A stretch of DNA of 63,922 bases from Candidatus Saganbacteria bacterium (lineage in GTDB: Bacteria; Margulisbacteria; WOR-1; XYC2-FULL-46-14; XYC2-FULL-37-10). The stretch lies in contig JACRPL010000004.1 of assembly GCA_016223245.1 (NCBI GenBank), positions 1 to 63,922 of the forward strand, written 5' to 3'. The notes below the pieces were generated by a model. It was not told the DNA's origin, ran no database searches, and worked only from the letters and a program-made list of their open reading frames with translations. The position numbers were made by a program, and so were the translations under genes. Below, in pieces: positions 7,545-58,629 of the stretch (within the stretch, counting starts at the first letter, position 1; the number at the start of each line of letters is the position of its first letter).

Positions 7545-9329
7545 ATGTCCACCGAAAAGATAAGAAATTTTTCAATAATCGCACATATTGACCACGGCAA
7601 ATCGACCCTCGCCGACCGCCTTCTGGAATATACAGGGACGATCGAAAAAAGGCAGATGAAAGAACAGGTGCTCGATACGATGGATCTTGAGCGCGAACGC
7701 GGCATTACTATCAAGGCCCAAGCGATACGCATCGAATATAACGGGTATATTTTAAATCTTATAGATACGCCTGGGCATGTAGATTTTTCTTATGAAGTTT
7801 CAAGATCGCTTGCCGCATGCGAAGGAGCTATTTTGATCGTTGACGCGACGCAAGGCATCGAGGCCCAAACCTTAGCCAACGCCTATCTCGCGATAAATAA
7901 TAATTTAACGATAATTCCCGTCATAAACAAGATCGACCTTCAGAATGCCGAAGTCGACAAAGCTTTAGAAGAATTGAAAAATGTTTTTGGGTTCAAAAAA
8001 GAAGAAGCAATATTGGCCTCCGCAAAAGAAGGTATTGGCATAAAAGAAATACTCGATGCCGTGATTGAAAGGGTCCCCCCGCCGGTTGGAGACGAAAATG
8101 CGCCCCTCCAGGCATTGATATTCGATTCACATTACGATATTTATCGCGGTGTAGTTGCGTATGTGAGGATCGTGAACGGAACTTTCAAGACGGGATCGCG
8201 CATACGGATGATGGGATCCGACTTGGATTATGAAGTTTTAGAGCTTGGGACGTTAAAGATTGGCCTTGTAAAAAGAGATTCATTAAGCGCGGGTGAAGTC
8301 GGATATTTTATTTCTGGTGTACGCAATGTGAGAGATTGCCGTGTTGGAGATACCGTGACCGACAAAAGCCGCCCTGCTTACAAGCCTTTGCCGGGATATA
8401 AGCCTATTAAGCCCATGGTCTATTGCGGAATATTCCCTGTAAATGCAGGAGATTTCGAACACCTGCAGGATTCGCTCGAAAAATTACAGTTAAACGATGC
8501 GGCATTGTTTTACGAAAAAGAAACCTCATCGGCTCTTGGCTTCGGGTTCCGATGCGGATTCTTGGGCCTTCTGCATTTGGAGATAATCCAAGAAAGATTG
8601 GAGAGGGAATATGATCTCGACCTGATCGCGACCGCTCCAAACGTTATTTACAAGATCAATTTCAAGAACAAAGAACCGATTTTTATTGATAATCCCGCCG
8701 ATTTCCCAGACCCGTCAATCATAGATTCCATAGAAGAGCCTTATTGCAAATTAACTCTCTTTACCCCAAGCCAATATGTCGGGCCTCTTATGGAAATTAC
8801 TAATGACAAACGCGGGCAATTCAAGGGTATGGAATATCTTGATCCGACAAGGGTAATGCTTAACTATGAGATCCCTTTGTCGGAATTGATATCGGAATAT
8901 CACGATCAGATGAAATCATCATCTCGAGGATATGCGTCGCTCGACTATGAACTGACCGGATACAAAGTTTCCGACTTGGTTAAAATGGATATAATGCTTA
9001 ATGCGGAGCCTGTCGATGCTCTTTCGACGATAGTTCATCGCGAAAAAGCTTATTCAAAAGGAAAACTGCTCGTTGAAAAATTAAAAGAAGTGATCCCTCG
9101 CCACCAATTCCAGATCCCTGTCCAGGCATCGATCGGAAGCAAAATTATCGCGCGCGAAAATATTGCCGCAATGAGGAAAGATGTTTTGGCCAAATGCTAC
9201 GGCGGGGACATTACTCGAAAACGAAAACTTTTGGAGAAACAGAAAGCCGGTAAGAAGAGAATGAAGCGCATAGGATCCGTAGATGTTCCGCAAGAAGCGT
9301 TTATGGCTGTGCTGCGCCTGGGGAAATGA
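7545..9329 (+). CDS. lepA: Elongation factor 4 (LepA), back-translocating GTPase
   Basis: 594 residues, the usual length. G1 is [10 protein letters not shown] (about residues 13-22), G2 RGITIKAQ, G3 DTPGHVDF and G4 NKIDL. The LepA-specific C-terminal domain is complete ([38 protein letters not shown]). The factor binds ribosomes and helps them recover from stalled or mistranslocated states. There is no Shine-Dalgarno sequence; the -10 box directly upstream suggests a leaderless mRNA. The gene is followed by hemW only 10 bases later, an order seen in many bacteria. Confidence 0.97.
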
Positions 9330-9339
9330 CCAAATCCCA

Positions 9340-10521
9340 ATGACCAATGACCAACATGGTATAAATTCTATATATATACACATTCCTTTCTGCAAGCAAA
9401 AGTGCTCGTATTGCGATTTTGTTTCGTATGCGGGAAAAGATGATCTAATAGATAAATATGTCGATGCTCTTTGCGAAGAGATCTCCACCCCCTCTTCTTT
9501 TCTCCTCCTTGGTAAGGGGGAGAATGCCGAGCAGAGCGAGGCAAGTGGGGGCACCATCTACTTTGGCGGCGGAACCCCCACTCTACTCAAACCAAAGCAT
9601 TTTGAAAAGATAATCAAAGCCCTCACCCCTTCGCTTCGCTCTTCCCCTCTCCCATTGGGAGAGGGGTTAGGGGTGAGGGCACTTGAGGTCACAATAGAAA
9701 CCAATCCCGGCACGGTCGACAAAGAATATCTTGTTGAATTAAGAAAACTTGGTATCAATAGAATTTCGTTCGGCGCGCAGAGCTTCAACGAAAAACATTT
9801 GAAACTTTTAGGCCGAATCCACGATTCTAAACAAATTTTTAATGCGGTCGAAGACGCGCGGGCGGCTGGATTTGATAATTTGAGCCTTGATCTCATCTTT
9901 GCGATCCCAGATCAAACTCTTGATGAATGGAAAGAAGATCTAAGAGCCGCCACGTCGCTTTGTCCCGAGCATGTTTCTACCTACAATCTACAGATCGAAC
10001 TTGGGACTCCACTTTTTGATCGCGTCTCGCATCACGCATTACGCATTACGTCGGAAGACCTCGATGCTGATATGTACGAATACTCAATAGAACAGCTTAC
10101 AGCAAACGGCTTTCGGCATTATGAGATCTCAAATTTCGCGAAACCTGGTTTTGAATGCCAACATAATATCAATTATTGGAAAATGAGGAATTGGATCGGT
10201 ATTGGCGCCGGGGCGCACTCTCATGTAAACGGGAACAGGTGGAATAATACTGGATCGGTAGAAGAATACATCTCTACCCCCTCTTGTCTCGCAAAGCTCG
10301 ACATTCTCCCCCTTGATAAGGGGGAGAAAAAAAGTGGGGGTGAAGTCATTTTCATGGGACTTAGGCTTCTTGAAGGGTTAGACATATCAAAGTTCGAGGG
10401 TTTCGAATCCGAAGTAACTGACTTAAGAAAAGACGGCTTGCTTGAAGAATCCGATAACAAGATACGGCTTACCAAGAAAGGCCTATTCCTCGGAAACCTC
10501 GTTTTCGAAAAGTTCGTATAG
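9340..10521 (+). CDS. hemW: Heme chaperone HemW-like radical SAM protein carrying four repeat-derived segments
   Basis: 393 residues from the ATG at 9340. The radical SAM CxxxCxxC motif is C18-C22-C25 (FCKQKCSYCDF), followed by YFGGGTPTLL, ETNPGTV, ISFGAQSFNEKHLKLLGR, FDNLSLDLIFAIPDQT, HYEISNFAKPGFECQHNINYW and GIGAGAHS, all diagnostic of HemW rather than true HemN. The protein passes heme to respiratory enzymes. Four stretches do not resemble the family and are built from dispersed repeats: residues about 49-72, 94-114, 227-238 and 311-335. All are in frame and located between conserved motifs, so the fold is probably kept. The first residues (MTNDQ) are also repeat-derived. It follows lepA by 10 bases. 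Confidence 0.9.
   Translation: MTNDQHGINSIYIHIPFCKQKCSYCDFVSYAGKDDLIDKYVDALCEEISTPSSFLLLGKGENAEQSEASGGTIYFGGGTPTLLKPKHFEKIIKALTPSLRSSPLPLGEGLGVRALEVTIETNPGTVDKEYLVELRKLGINRISFGAQSFNEKHLKLLGRIHDSKQIFNAVEDARAAGFDNLSLDLIFAIPDQTLDEWKEDLRAATSLCPEHVSTYNLQIELGTPLFDRVSHHALRITSEDLDADMYEYSIEQLTANGFRHYEISNFAKPGFECQHNINYWKMRNWIGIGAGAHSHVNGNRWNNTGSVEEYISTPSCLAKLDILPLDKGEKKSGGEVIFMGLRLLEGLDISKFEGFESEVTDLRKDGLLEESDNKIRLTKKGLFLGNLVFEKFV
9485..9555 (+). repeat. About 70-bp palindromic repeat inside hemW (copy 1, inverted)
   Basis: The stretch from CCACCCCCTC to AGTGGGGGCACC contains CTCCTCCTTGGTAAGGGGGAG. Its reverse complement matches the stretch at 10272-10343 along nearly its whole length, so it is the same element in the opposite orientation. 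It codes for STPSSFLLLGKGENAEQSEA in frame. Confidence 0.8.
9620..9680 (+). repeat. Palindromic repeat inside hemW, CCCTCACCCC type
   Basis: It begins CCCTCACCCC and ends GGGGTGAGGGC, with CCCCTCTCCC and GGGAGAGGGG inside, so it is a near-perfect large hairpin. It codes for ALTPSLRSSPLPLGEGLGVR in frame between the GGGTPT and ETNPGTV motifs of HemW. Confidence 0.8.
10020..10053 (+). repeat. CGCATTACGC-type repeat inside hemW
   Basis: A run of CGCGTCTCGCATCACGC and ATTACGCATTACG codes for RVSHHALRITS in frame. Related words occur in the tRNA-Ser spacer (5396-5475) and in rsmA (57187-57218). Confidence 0.6.
10272..10343 (+). repeat. About 70-bp palindromic repeat inside hemW (copy 2, direct)
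   Basis: CTCTACCCCCTCTTG through CATTCTCCCCCTTGATAAGG to AGTGGGGGTGA. The core CTCCCCCTTGATAAGGGGGAG is a hairpin. It codes for STPSCLAKLDILPLDKGEKK in frame and matches the reverse complement of 9485-9555. Confidence 0.8.
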
Positions 10522-21466: not shown

Positions 21467-23170
21467 ATGAAAAAAATGAATAGAGTGATGTGTGGCGAAT
21501 TGCGCGTGATTGGATTATATTTGGTCATTGGGATTTGGTCATTGGGATTTGCCGCGTTAGTGGCAGGTTGCGGCCAGACCACATCATCGGCCACAACAAC
21601 AACAATCGCTGCAACTACTACTACAACTACTACTACAACTACTACAACGACATCAAGCACGACCACAACTACAATGGGACTCGAAACAGTTATTGCAGGA
21701 ACAGCGGCAACAAGTACAACCAGCCTTTCCGTGTCAAACATAAGAAGTTCGGCTGCATCCCTAACGGGCGCAGCCGTGAAAATATATACCGGATCATCCG
21801 GAACTGACGAGATCGCTTTAGCCGGTACCGGCACTTGCGCCGCCGATGGGAGCTATTCGGTCAATGTCCCCGTGACCTCTCTTGCAAGCACTACGGCAAC
21901 TTCCGGCCTTGCGGCAAATCTTATGGTTGAAATATCATTATCCGATGGGACAACGCTTGGAGCCGTCATTCCTGCAATAAGCCCAGAAGCCGGAGTTACA
22001 AACTATGCCCCTGCCTGCAACCCGGGCGGATATAAAAAATCATTAATAACCCGAACTGCTTTCAAAAAGGGCAGCGATCCAAAGAGTTTCGATTATACTG
22101 GAGGCGTTGGTAATAAATATTCTGATGACGCGGTAAAAGACTGGGATTCGACAAAAACTGCCGCAGCCGGAGATGCTTCGTACAACGCCGAAACCGCGGA
22201 ATCAAGCATTGGTGCAGGGCTAGGGATCAGTTCTACCATCCTTTCACAATTAAGACAGAAAGGCATCCAATTGTTCAAGACCTATTTAGAGCCGATCATG
22301 CAGTCGGCTCATGCGACAAAAACACCTCCGAACAAGGCGCTCATAGACCTCGCGTCTTCTTCCATGGAGGCTGAAATGCTCACATATGCTACTTCACTTG
22401 GTCTAACAGCACAGCAATTGTCAGATCTTAAAGCCATGAAAGACAAGCAATTTGAAAATAAAATGAGCGAATCGGGGTCATTTACTGGCGACGCAGGGTT
22501 TGAGGAATCAAAACGCCGAATGAAAGGAGCAAAGATCGTCTCGCTATTTCTTTCACAGCATGCCGCCGCTAAAACCCTTGCAGATGTTTCTACGGCGACA
22601 AAATCAAGCTTTGCGATCGCGCAACCTGTAATATATTTGCAATTTCTTGCCACAAAAGAAACAATAGTCAACAGACTCAATGCATATGTTACAGACGGCA
22701 GCGGCATAAGCGGCGATATCGGGTCTTATCTTCGTACCGCGTTTTTTGACGCTTACCTTTTTCCCTCTGCGACCGACCAGTCGGGAGTTTCAAAAGAAGT
22801 GATCATGTTGACTTTCAAAGGCAACAGGATAATGATGTATTTCATGCAGACATTCTTTTCGACAGCCGATGCCGGGACTGTTTTCACCGCCATGGGGTCA
22901 ACAATGCAGGTTGTATTTTCAAACAGGTTCTCAAATGCTTCATCCGCGTATTACATGGGCGAGCAATTCTGGAACGGAACAACGCTTGGGCATAGGCCGA
23001 CCGCAGCGGAGATCCAAGCAAGGCTTGCTTTATTTGATACCGCTTTAACAGATGCAGTCGATAATAATGTTACGGTAAAAACGATATTTACCAATATTTT
23101 TAGCGCAACCACTACGACAAGCCTGTTAAAAGCATTAAGGATCATAAGCGCGCCGCCGGACGCATTTTAG
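21467..23170 (+). CDS. Lipoprotein with a long Thr tract and a repeat-derived signal peptide
   Basis: 567 residues. The lipobox is LVAGCGQ (Cys about residue 35). Just after it comes a Thr tract with 13 consecutive threonines (encoded by ACT/ACA/ACG triplets) and a second shorter one, probably an extended or glycosylated stalk. The mature part has an Ig-like or regulatory segment (about 75-160) and then a large helical domain of unknown family. The hydrophobic core of the signal peptide (GLYLVIGIWSLGF) is encoded by the dispersed TTTGGTCATTGGGATTTGG repeat. The promoter has consensus -35 and -10 boxes. A hairpin terminator follows. Its organisation (signal, Cys, Thr tract, Ig-like domain) parallels the lipoprotein at 17831-19336. 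Confidence 0.8.
   Translation: MKKMNRVMCGELRVIGLYLVIGIWSLGFAALVAGCGQTTSSATTTTIAATTTTTTTTTTTTTSSTTTTTMGLETVIAGTAATSTTSLSVSNIRSSAASLTGAAVKIYTGSSGTDEIALAGTGTCAADGSYSVNVPVTSLASTTATSGLAANLMVEISLSDGTTLGAVIPAISPEAGVTNYAPACNPGGYKKSLITRTAFKKGSDPKSFDYTGGVGNKYSDDAVKDWDSTKTAAAGDASYNAETAESSIGAGLGISSTILSQLRQKGIQLFKTYLEPIMQSAHATKTPPNKALIDLASSSMEAEMLTYATSLGLTAQQLSDLKAMKDKQFENKMSESGSFTGDAGFEESKRRMKGAKIVSLFLSQHAAAKTLADVSTATKSSFAIAQPVIYLQFLATKETIVNRLNAYVTDGSGISGDIGSYLRTAFFDAYLFPSATDQSGVSKEVIMLTFKGNRIMMYFMQTFFSTADAGTVFTAMGSTMQVVFSNRFSNASSAYYMGEQFWNGTTLGHRPTAAEIQARLALFDTALTDAVDNNVTVKTIFTNIFSATTTTSLLKALRIISAPPDAF
21519..21550 (+). repeat. TTTGGTCATTGGGATTTGG repeat inside a signal-peptide coding region
   Basis: Two tandem copies of the TTTGGTCATTGGGA word sit in frame, coding YLVIGIWSLGF. 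The same words are intergenic at 15842-15874 and at the lepA/hemW junction. Confidence 0.75.
21595..21680 (+). repeat. ACN-triplet microsatellite coding for a threonine tract
   Basis: Runs of ACT ACT ACT ACA and ACAACAACAACA code for the Thr tract of the lipoprotein at 21467. Length changes in units of three would alter the stalk without breaking the frame. Confidence 0.8.
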
Positions 23171-40184: not shown

Positions 40185-41035
40185 CGTAATTTTGCACTTC
40201 TCGCCCTGGGATTTGCCAATATTTCTTCTTCGCTCGGCAATATCGGCTTCTTAGTGATTATCTTAAGTATACCATTTTTGTGGAGATCCCGGAAAAACCA
40301 TTTAACGATCCTGTCTTCGAGTGAATGGTATGAAATAACGACGATCCTGCCGCCAGGATTAAGCTTTTCGACAGCAGCAGAAAACCCCTTCTTCAAACTT
40401 TCAAGCTCATGGTTGACTTCTATTCTTAGTGCTTGGAATATTCGAGTGACGGATTCCCGCTTCTTCCAGGTAGGGATAGCTTTTTCGATGATATCTTTTA
40501 GCTGAAAAGTGGTTTTAATCGGGTTCGCGTCACGCGTCTGCCATATCGCATTGCTTACCCTCTTAGAAAACCTCTCTTCCCCATATTCAAAAAAAATACG
40601 CGTAAGTTCTTCTTTCGAGTACCCGTTCACGACGCTGTAAGCCGTAAGCTGTGAGCCTTTATCCATGCGCATATCGAGAGGCGCGTCAGATCTGATGCTA
40701 AATCCCCGAGATTCCTCGTTTATCTGATGGGAAGATATGCCTAGATCGAATAAAAAGCCGTCAACGGGCTTATTGATAAGTTTTCCAATATCAGAGAAAT
40801 TTCCGTGAACATATTCAATGTCGCTATGTTCCTTTGTTTCTAAGTTTCTGTGTGCCTCTGCTAAAGCCTCGTTATCTTGATCTATTCCGATCAATTTGAC
40901 ATTTGACATTTGACATTTGACATTCTCGGCGTGCCCTCCCCCGCCGAGGGTGCAATCGACGTAAGTCCCGCCTTTTTTTAAATTGAGGGATTCTATTGTC
41001 ACTATTGGCATTACGGGGTTGTGAAAATTTGACAT
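40166..41035 (-). CDS. rsmH: 16S rRNA (cytosine1402-N4)-methyltransferase, with repeat-derived segments
   Basis: 289 residues. Motifs are HNPVMPIVTIESLNLKKGGTYVDCTLGGGGHAE (SAM site), FLFDLGISSHQINEESRGFSI, PLDMRMDKG, RIFQALRIEVNHELESL and ISYHSLEDRIVKWFF. Residues about 38-47 (NVKCQMSNVK) are encoded by four tandem copies of ATTTGAC, a word used in intergenic repeats elsewhere. Residues about 59-70 (AHRNLETKEHSD) match the hairpin repeat at 56175-56256. It methylates C1402 of 16S rRNA. On the minus strand TATAAT ends six bases before the ATG. Confidence 0.95.
   Translation of the reverse strand: MSNFHNPVMPIVTIESLNLKKGGTYVDCTLGGGGHAENVKCQMSNVKLIGIDQDNEALAEAHRNLETKEHSDIEYVHGNFSDIGKLINKPVDGFLFDLGISSHQINEESRGFSIRSDAPLDMRMDKGSQLTAYSVVNGYSKEELTRIFFEYGEERFSKRVSNAIWQTRDANPIKTTFQLKDIIEKAIPTWKKRESVTRIFQALRIEVNHELESLKKGFSAAVEKLNPGGRIVVISYHSLEDRIVKWFFRDLHKNGILKIITKKPILPSEEEILANPRARSAKLRCAEKT
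40895..40924 (-). repeat. Tandem ATTTGAC heptamers inside rsmH
   Basis: Four copies of the 7-bp word ATTTGAC in direct tandem, in coding sequence, giving NVKCQMSNVK. Variants are found before queF (32057-32078) and between pdxA and rsmA (57604-57632). Confidence 0.8.
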
Positions 41036-56817: not shown

Positions 56818-57606
56818 TTAAGTCTCCTTAGAAATTCTCTCAAATTCTTCTAGGCTTAAAGTCTCTGCTCTTCTTCTCGAATCGATGCCAATCTTTTCGA
56901 AATCAAGATTGTATTTTTTTAGCGTACTTCGTATCATCTTGCGGCGCTGGGAAAAAGCCGCACGCACAACTTCTTCTTTAATATCGTAACGCAAATGTTC
57001 CAATGGTTTGAGTATAAGAACCGCCGAATCTACATTAGGCGGCGGATAAAACGATCGTCTTGAAATATGAGATGCGATCTCAACATCCGCCCTGTTTTGG
57101 ACAAAAACACTGAACGACCCGAACTTCTTTGTCCCGGAATTGGCGCATATTCTTTCCGCTACTTCTTTTTGCACCGTTAACACAATACGCGTCACGTGTC
57201 TCGCGTCTCGCATCTCGTTTAAAAGTTTTTCAATAATCGGAGAAGTTATATAATACGGAACATTCGCAACAACTTTAGTAAATGGGCGATCTATCAACCA
57301 CTCCAAGAAATCGGCATGGACGAAATTGACATTTTGAAAATTCGATAAGACTTCTTTAGTTATCTGTATCATTTCGCGGTCAAGATCGAGCGTTGTTACA
57401 TGCTTGGCTTTTGAAGCCAAAGCTTGTGTTAATACGCCAAGCCCGCACCCGATCTCTAACACATCATCATCAGGAGTAAGTTCTGCGGCAGCAACAATTC
57501 GATCTAACGCGGCTTGATCGACAAGAAAATTTTGTCCCAATCGTTTTTGAGCGTGTCGGTTGTATGCGGAAAGTAATTCTTTAGTAGTTCTTAATAAGTC
57601 GTTCAT
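56818..57606 (-). CDS. rsmA: 16S rRNA dimethyladenosine transferase, with one repeat-derived segment
   Basis: 262 residues. SAM and target motifs are QKRLGQNFLVDQAALDRIV, DDVLEIGCGLGVLTQAL, LDLDREMIQI, VANVPYYITSPII and RRSFYPPPNVDSAVL. It dimethylates A1518 and A1519 of 16S rRNA. Residues about 130-140 (EMRDARHVTRI) are encoded by a GTCTCGCGTCTCGCATC-type repeat at 57187-57218. The start lies behind a copy of the ATTTGAC-type repeat that fills the gap to pdxA. Confidence 0.95.
   Translation of the reverse strand: MNDLLRTTKELLSAYNRHAQKRLGQNFLVDQAALDRIVAAAELTPDDDVLEIGCGLGVLTQALASKAKHVTTLDLDREMIQITKEVLSNFQNVNFVHADFLEWLIDRPFTKVVANVPYYITSPIIEKLLNEMRDARHVTRIVLTVQKEVAERICANSGTKKFGSFSVFVQNRADVEIASHISRRSFYPPPNVDSAVLILKPLEHLRYDIKEEVVRAAFSQRRKMIRSTLKKYNLDFEKIGIDSRRRAETLSLEEFERISKET
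57187..57218 (-). repeat. CGCGTCTCGCATC-type repeat inside rsmA
   Basis: GCGTCACGTGTCTCGCGTCT then CGCATCTCG on the plus strand, coding RDARHVTR on the minus strand. Compare hemW 10020-10053 (CGCGTCTCGCATCACGC). Confidence 0.6.
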
Positions 57607-57632
57607 TTGACATTTGTCATTTGAAATTTGTC
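57604..57632. repeat. ATTTGAC/AAATTTGTC repeat between pdxA and rsmA
   Basis: TTTGACATTTGTCATTTGAA then ATTTGTCAT: repeated and partly palindromic. It sits exactly in the gap between two co-directional genes, as in front of queF (32057-32078). Confidence 0.65.
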
Positions 57633-58629
57633 ATTTATTCGCGCGGGCAAACGATGCCGCAACTTTTATGGCCTGTATCATACTGCCCGGGTTAGCATCC
57701 CCGCGCCCTACTATGTCAAAACCTGTCCCGTGATCGACTGATGTGCGAATAAAAGGAAGCCCCACCGTGACATTTACAGATTTGTTGAAAGACAAAAGTT
57801 TAAGAGGAATAAGGCCTTGATCGTGGTACATGGCAACTACGATATCGAAAGCTCCGGCGGATGCCAAATTAAATATTGCATCGGGAGAAATTGGGCCTCT
57901 GACATTGATCCCCATTTTTTTTGCTTCATCAACAGCGGGCTTTATTATTTTTATTTCTTCCGACCCAAAAATGCCGGCTTCGCCAGCGTGAGGATTAAGT
58001 CCTGCAACACCTATCTTGCCTTTTTTTCTTTTGGCTTTACTTAATGCGTCATTCGCCATAATAATTTTTTCCAATACGTTGGCTTTATTAATGCTTCGCG
58101 ATACGGATTTCAAAGGCAAGTGTGTTGTAACGAGTATTACCCAAAGTTTGTCGGAGACGAACATCATCCCGTATTTTTTTGTCTTGGACTTTTTAGCGAA
58201 TATCTCGGTATGGCCTTGGAATTTGTACCCGGCTTTGTGAATAGCTTCTTTATTTATTGGCCCAGTTGTAATGCCATCGATTTTTTTACTAAGCGCCAGC
58301 TTTGTCGCCTCTTCGATATATTGAAACGAAGCTTTTCCGCACATGGATGAAACTTCTCCCAATTTCAGCTTGTTCATATCGACATTATCGAGATCCAGCA
58401 CATCGATCTGATTTCTTTGGAATTTGGCGTCTTCGATCTTTTTTATTGGATTTACGGTAACTCCCGGCAGATGTGCGATCTTTATCGCGTATTGGATCAC
58501 TTTTCTGTCGCCTATAACAACGATCCTTGCAACATTTGTAATCTCGGGATTTGTGGCAGCCTTAACAGTTACCTCTGGCCCAATTCCAGATGGGTCTCCC
58601 ATAGTGATCGCAATTATCGGTCTATTCAT
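57631..58629 (-). CDS. pdxA: 4-hydroxythreonine-4-phosphate dehydrogenase
   Basis: 332 residues. Signatures are IAITMGDPSGIGPEV, GITTGPINKEAIHKAGYKFQGHTEIF with the metal-binding His, VTTHLPLKSV, LNPHAGEAGIFGSEE, GPISPDAIF, AMYHDQGLIPLKLL and VTVGLPFIRTSVDHGTGFDIVGRGDA. It makes a precursor of pyridoxal phosphate, or acts in a paralogous pathway (PdxA2). GTGAGGC precedes the ATG. It lies between an aminotransferase gene and rsmA; pdxA-rsmA is a frequent pair. Confidence 0.95.
   Translation of the reverse strand: MNRPIIAITMGDPSGIGPEVTVKAATNPEITNVARIVVIGDRKVIQYAIKIAHLPGVTVNPIKKIEDAKFQRNQIDVLDLDNVDMNKLKLGEVSSMCGKASFQYIEEATKLALSKKIDGITTGPINKEAIHKAGYKFQGHTEIFAKKSKTKKYGMMFVSDKLWVILVTTHLPLKSVSRSINKANVLEKIIMANDALSKAKRKKGKIGVAGLNPHAGEAGIFGSEEIKIIKPAVDEAKKMGINVRGPISPDAIFNLASAGAFDIVVAMYHDQGLIPLKLLSFNKSVNVTVGLPFIRTSVDHGTGFDIVGRGDANPGSMIQAIKVAASFARANK

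Follow-up and report, generated by a model that had tools for sequence, protein, structure and literature searches.

Palindromic elements and heptanucleotide arrays in frame within hemW and other genes of a Candidatus Saganbacteria genome and its relatives

Reports of palindromic repeats lying in frame within protein-coding genes come chiefly from Rickettsia and from a few genomes with REP sequences. The Rickettsia palindromic elements (RPE) described by Ogata et al. are non-autonomous palindromes of 105-146 bp, found between genes as well as in frame within genes for conserved proteins, where they are translated and apparently tolerated, as in Gmk (PMC2229807); truB is among their hosts (PMC3733652). 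REPs of the GTAG/CGTC type are mostly intergenic overall, but these short palindromes also occur within ORFs, sometimes two per gene, with tRNA synthetase genes and truB among the hosts, and recB of two Xanthomonas species was struck at approximately the same site (PMC3733652). Heptamers inside genes have a precedent in the heptanucleotide elements of Geobacter metallireducens, which form one fixed family (PMC2700814).

Here we describe two palindromic families, A and B, and a set of heptamer arrays. Judged by features and not by sequence, A and B resemble the RPE in being palindromic, dispersed and in frame within genes, with truB as a host once more. They differ from them in size (47-82 nt), in belonging to an unrelated lineage, in being commonly intragenic and in the reuse of the same codon positions across bacterial families. 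With the intragenic REPs they share short palindromes inside ORFs, sometimes twice per gene, and synthetase and truB hosts; in contrast to REPs, they lack a GTAG or CGTC end tag, and the analysis found no RAYT with A or B on its flanks. By analogy, the elements appear to act like RPE and intragenic REPs, yet belong to neither class. The heptamer units, unlike the single family of Geobacter, change from one genome to the next but keep to fixed loops of the proteins throughout the class. In a 2008 study cited in PMC3116915, Elhai and co-workers reportedly found tiny structured dispersed repeats and tandem heptamers together in one cyanobacterial genome; here, by contrast, both kinds would be translated inside essential enzymes, and family A is generally not embedded in heptamer arrays.

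The window, a stretch of 63,922 nucleotides (contig JACRPL010000004.1 of assembly GCA_016223245.1), carries at 9340-10521 (+) an intact ORF of 393 codons that scores 302 bits with the HemW model TIGR00539 (cut-off 205.4; residues 10-381) and contains the CxxxCxxC and GGGTP motifs. HemW, a radical SAM heme chaperone, is kept in 29 of 31 genomes of the class, and its protein core is 62-73% identical in the class comparison while fourfold-degenerate sites are saturated. As far as sequence can tell, the hemW of the window is a working gene under purifying selection, with no signs of being dead. A lepA-like ORF (7545-9329) lies directly upstream, and an Rfam search of the window returned tRNAs only. 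The start codon (ATG at 9340) and a second ATG at 9347 fall within a heptamer array, (CCAATGA)2.6 at 9337-9354 (+), detected by TRF on own-genome DNA. Similar arrays are found just 5' of ileS (L052:16507-16536) and elsewhere in the genome, so that heptamer arrays may supply start codons.

When the whole genome was searched with the hemW DNA, secondary matches were confined to gene nt 1-45 (the start-codon array), 144-212, 277-342 and 933-1008. The initial annotation had proposed that four internal segments of the gene derive from hairpin-forming repeats, two of them the same element in opposite orientations. Site 1 (9487-9552, +) is a 66-nt palindromic element of family A in canonical orientation that encodes TPSSFLLLGKGENAEQSEASGG, and its hairpin gave z -2.9 when DNA folding was compared with shuffles. 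Site 2 (9619-9680, +) is a 62-nt hairpin element of family B encoding ALTPSLRSSPLPLGEGLGVRA (z -6.4), and a copy elsewhere in the genome is 95% identical to it. Site 4 (10276-10341, -) is again a 66-nt family A element, reverse to the site-1 copy and encoding TPSCLAKLDILPLDKGEKKSGG (z -5.8); the predicted peptides of the hemW segments include TPSSFLLLGKGENAEQSEASGG and ALTPSLRSSPLPLGEGLGVR. Site 3 (10021-10050, +), identified by TRF and lag-7 analysis, is a heptamer tandem array with the units CGCGTCT CGCATCA CGCATTA CGCATTA CG (TRF 10028-10050), encodes about RVSHHALRIT and shows a fold z of -0.09. Hence segments 1, 2 and 4 are indeed hairpin-forming and dispersed, and segment 3 is not a hairpin. 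The two family A copies form an inverted repeat (9483-9551 / 10277-10345; 69 nt, 81% complementarity), recovered at E 4e-13 in a search of 456 kb; together with the genome-wide copies, this bears out the claim that a working hemW contains repeat-derived segments and that two of these are copies of a single element, one in each orientation. The proposed segments were correctly located, with boundaries that move by a few bases, and the aligned proteins place the conserved HemW motifs outside them, as had been claimed. The four internal segments total approximately 223 of the 1179 nt of hemW (19%), close to the suggested fifth of the protein, but since HemW lengths range from 348 to 428 aa across the class the net gain from repeats is smaller than that. 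It is also true that the element is open and in frame on both strands in one gene; this is, however, a weak sign of anything special, because four of the six frames of the family A consensus contain no stop (three to six in single copies), and two-way openness therefore requires no special selection.

The genome contains about 35 copies of family A and about 12 of family B. The family A core CTCCCCCTTNNNAAGGGGGAG occurs exactly 30 times in the 1.65-Mb genome, against 0 occurrences of a reversed-pattern control. The element consists of an arm ACCCCCTCT, a hairpin TCTCCCCCTTnnnAAGGGGGAGA, a second, variable hairpin and an arm AGAGGGGGT; its ends read ACCCCC..GGGGGT, and among copies that range from 47 to 82 nt, lengths of 66-67 and 58-59 nt are the most frequent. 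In the small second hairpin, compensatory changes amount to four pairs only, so covariation supports its structure weakly. We sampled approximately 550 kb of the genome in stretches, of which 456 kb comprised the window contig and three further contigs picked for their matches to HemW protein segments. A palindrome search of the full sample found 34 family A copies, the majority within long ORFs and in frame. In-gene copies run in either direction and use each of the three phases, giving ..LPLDKGE.., ..SPPYQGGDV.. and ..SPLIRGR... Within the 456 kb, where the interior coding fraction is 0.82, 9 of 12 A copies and all four B copies recovered as palindromes were in ORF interiors. Host genes of family A, as named by NCBIfam, include leuS, ileS (twice), miaA (twice), truB, miaB, queA, trpE and bioA. 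Some of them hold several repeats, as hemW does: in leuS (L048:7414-9924) both palindromic families are represented alongside a heptamer array, and ileS (L052:13638-16484), a second synthetase gene with multiple repeats, has two A and one B. Family B-like hairpins also lie 17-26 codons from apparent ORF starts (L055:8804, L091:1413, L092:1508, L093:1592, L094:1481 and L096:1377), where they share the longer context ..ALTQFFQFSEHKPISPLPVGEGL..; these are perhaps a 5' leader element and not coding sequence. The arm and hairpin of family A were also seen in five IMG/VR contigs (L129-L133), which may be of viral or of host origin. The plasmids searched for family A gave no match.

Family A has several features of a MITE: terminal inverted repeats (ACCCCCTCT / AGAGGGGGT), short length, about 35 copies and no transposase of its own. 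A target-site duplication was looked for and not found: its flanks, T-rich on the left and A-rich on the right, showed no excess match for k = 1-6 (p > 0.2 in every register tried). A PF01797 search of the genome yielded a single Y1 transposase, scoring 65.4 against 55 for IS200 and 47.7 against 80 for RAYT. This IS200-like gene (L089:1800-2330) has TGCGAATAAATTCGC hairpins on both sides, which form a family distinct from A and B. A RAYT was consequently rejected as the mobiliser, the genome's sole Y1 transposase falling below the RAYT cut-off and being flanked by hairpins other than A or B; the PF01797 search gave no transposase linked to either family.

Among the tandem repeats that TRF detected in the 456 kb of own-genome DNA, a period of seven far outnumbers every other, and 36 of the 55 merged arrays lie in ORF interiors. 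Further heptamer arrays in the window are located at 21519-21551, 40894-40924, 57188-57217 and 57603-57636, with the units ATTTGGTCATTGGG, ATTTGAC, CGCGTCT and CATTTGA. We also considered whether palindromic elements sit embedded in such arrays. The flanks of 34 A copies have a lag-7 self-identity of 0.29 against a background of 0.257 (sd 0.021), so embedding is not general.

To see what relatives hold at the four sites, we aligned HemW proteins of the class and searched the hemW DNA of three relatives against their own genomes. Lengths differ strongly at these four places. Dispersed repeats were found at all four sites in G008 (f2; gene nt 114-189, 257-299, 633-672 and 882-936), at three in G028 (f7; 124-216, 284-314 and 661-711) and at two in G029 (f9; 250-289 and 616-748), and nowhere else in any of these genes. 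Loop contents vary by genome and comprise family A, family B, other hairpins and heptamer arrays, among them (GTCATTC)n, (CGTTACC)n and (GAGTCGC)n, while some relatives (L019, L020 and L025) have much shorter loops. Across the class, lag-7 self-identity in the four loops reaches z 6.8, 13.0, 8.9 and 7.2, with 0.257 in the HemW core. By the reasoning of the initial annotation, the segments would count as old parts of the protein if relatives shared them, unchanged in length and diverged at synonymous positions; in the relatives, however, the repeats at these four sites vary in both kind and length.

The same pattern recurs in IleRS. Its loops at about residues 211-230, 681-700 and 801-820 hold heptamer arrays in most genomes and palindromic elements in some, and lag-7 bins at these three loops are 0.40-0.64 against a median of 0.257. 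The phenomenon thus belongs to these genomes and their tolerant loops, and not to HemW alone.

Structure prediction is consistent with a loop location. An AlphaFold model of the HemW of the window (5-sequence alignment, mean pLDDT 70), whose closest fold is E. coli HemN (1olt), has three low-confidence stretches that lie between helices and strands and coincide with segments 1, 2 and 4 (57-70, 100-113 and 322-336). Since inserts without homologous columns are expected to have low pLDDT, this agreement with the predicted mapping on loops is partly circular and lends it weak support. In the model, segments 1 and 2 each connect a helix to the barrel strand that follows it. In radical-SAM barrels the connections from a helix to the next strand face away from the cluster, and these two segments would then be on the barrel face away from it.

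We consider it probable that hemW is functional and that small repetitive DNA, which turns over and survives in the loops of essential enzymes, has settled in those of its loops that tolerate it. Two kinds of repeat would contribute: palindromic, MITE-like elements of approximately 47-82 nt (A, B and others), capable of forming hairpins and present in tens per genome, and short heptanucleotide tandem arrays that grow and shrink. Both may land or grow nearly anywhere, genes included. Copies that preserve the reading frame in a permissive loop would be translated and retained, and others purged; as most frames lack stops, such copies would simply be read through as protein. Survival in permissive loops would also explain why the same four HemW and three IleRS loops are refilled in different lineages. 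The palindromic elements would move through a hairpin DNA or RNA intermediate with the help of a putative enzyme, and we infer that the repeats are expressed and neutral for the enzyme. Support for the initial interpretation is partial: segment 3 turned out to be a heptamer array, and hemW is not singular, many genes of this genome and class-wide loops being affected.

Colonisation of tolerant loops by random insertion and selection does not account for family A at fixed positions. Family A occupies the same site-4 codon of hemW in G000 (f1), G008 (f2), G011 (f7) and G017 and G018 (f9; one codon off in G018), in the window in the orientation opposite to that of the relatives. These elements are 82-95% identical between genomes, far above the identity of their host genes at fourfold-degenerate third positions (28-39%, at saturation). 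At residue 681 of ileS, a 67-nt element is 99% identical in G000 and G008, which are of different families, at the same position but in opposite orientations, with fourfold sites at 29%; G018 also carries family A there. Both the shared hemW codon in several families and the ileS position shared by three genomes run counter to random insertion plus selection. So does a private subfamily of the hemW copies: the signature CTTCTTTTC..GGAGAATG is present in all six of them and in none of the 48 other A copies of G000 and G008. Plain inheritance and random insertion both misfit this sharing of sites, and the sequences suggest recurrent return to fixed sites. Site preference, an old insertion with constraint at the DNA level, and homogenisation are the candidate explanations.

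A first possibility, which we regard as unlikely though serious, is that family A behaves in a homing-like manner, returning to preferred sites (hemW loop 4 and ileS loop 681) irrespective of orientation and spreading between lineages. The five genomes in which the full-length A query has at least three matches (G000, G008, G011, G017 and G018) all have a hemW site-4 copy, and 3 of the 47 exact A palindromes in relatives lie in hemW, where 0.034 would be expected; these censuses use similarity thresholds on draft genomes and give lower bounds. The near-identity of the ileS element between families despite its inverted orientation, the T-rich and A-rich flanks, and the absence of family A from G001 and G002, of the same family as the window genome, agree with such return. 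However, most A copies are at unrelated single sites, the target motif is weak, a handful of tolerant loops in which copies survive well could look like targets, and a subfamily proper to the hemW copies is compatible with descent too. Tentatively, and with somewhat less conviction, one may go further and picture a tiny palindromic mobile element that, whichever way round, keeps returning to the same nucleotide of the essential genes hemW and ileS across families, passes from one lineage to another and is read in frame where it lands, as an unspliced, protein-tolerated counterpart of a homing element. Other bearers of the hemW-type signature were noted in two genomes. In G011 the only one adjoins hemW, outside the gene (L137, C1:105650-105950). 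G018 has two more outside hemW; a hemW-type element there lies in a stretch matching IleRS at 35% (L146, G018 C78:26506), likely a paralogous synthetase such as valS, so that a third synthetase gene seems to carry family A.

Descent offers a second possibility, likewise doubtful: a single ancient insertion at hemW site 4, inherited through the class, turned round in the window genome when its arms recombined, lost from most lineages, and kept similar by a DNA or RNA structure constraint or by gene conversion. The identical codon position in f1, f2, f7 and f9 and the signature shared by all six hemW copies but missing from the 48 other copies of G000 and G008 are what descent would leave, and the outer arms of family A, being inverted repeats, make flipping in place possible. 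Against it, the identity of the elements relative to fourfold sites demands an extra constraint, about 20 members of the class lack the site-4 element, and the ileS copies pose the same puzzle without a private subfamily.

It is highly improbable that the segments are ancient, functional portions of HemW whose composition merely happens to be repetitive. They are in frame in a conserved gene, but the same DNA is found in dozens of unrelated genes and at intergenic sites, and relatives differ there in sequence and length, down to the much shorter loops already mentioned. An assembly artefact or a pseudogene is less credible still, for although the genomes are drafts the repeats are shorter than 100 nt, the same loops are affected in independent assemblies of many species, and purifying selection is acting on an unbroken ORF.

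Compared with the systems known so far, what is new in these genomes is a separate lineage, a repeat family with most of its copies intragenic, two types of repeat in the same loops, and class-wide refuges in essential enzymes. Element identities of 82-99% in hemW and ileS, against saturated synonymous sites at 25-39%, constitute a clean quantitative puzzle. Furthermore, these loops make it possible to test which protein sites tolerate the insertion of raw DNA, and to tell targeting from mere survival.
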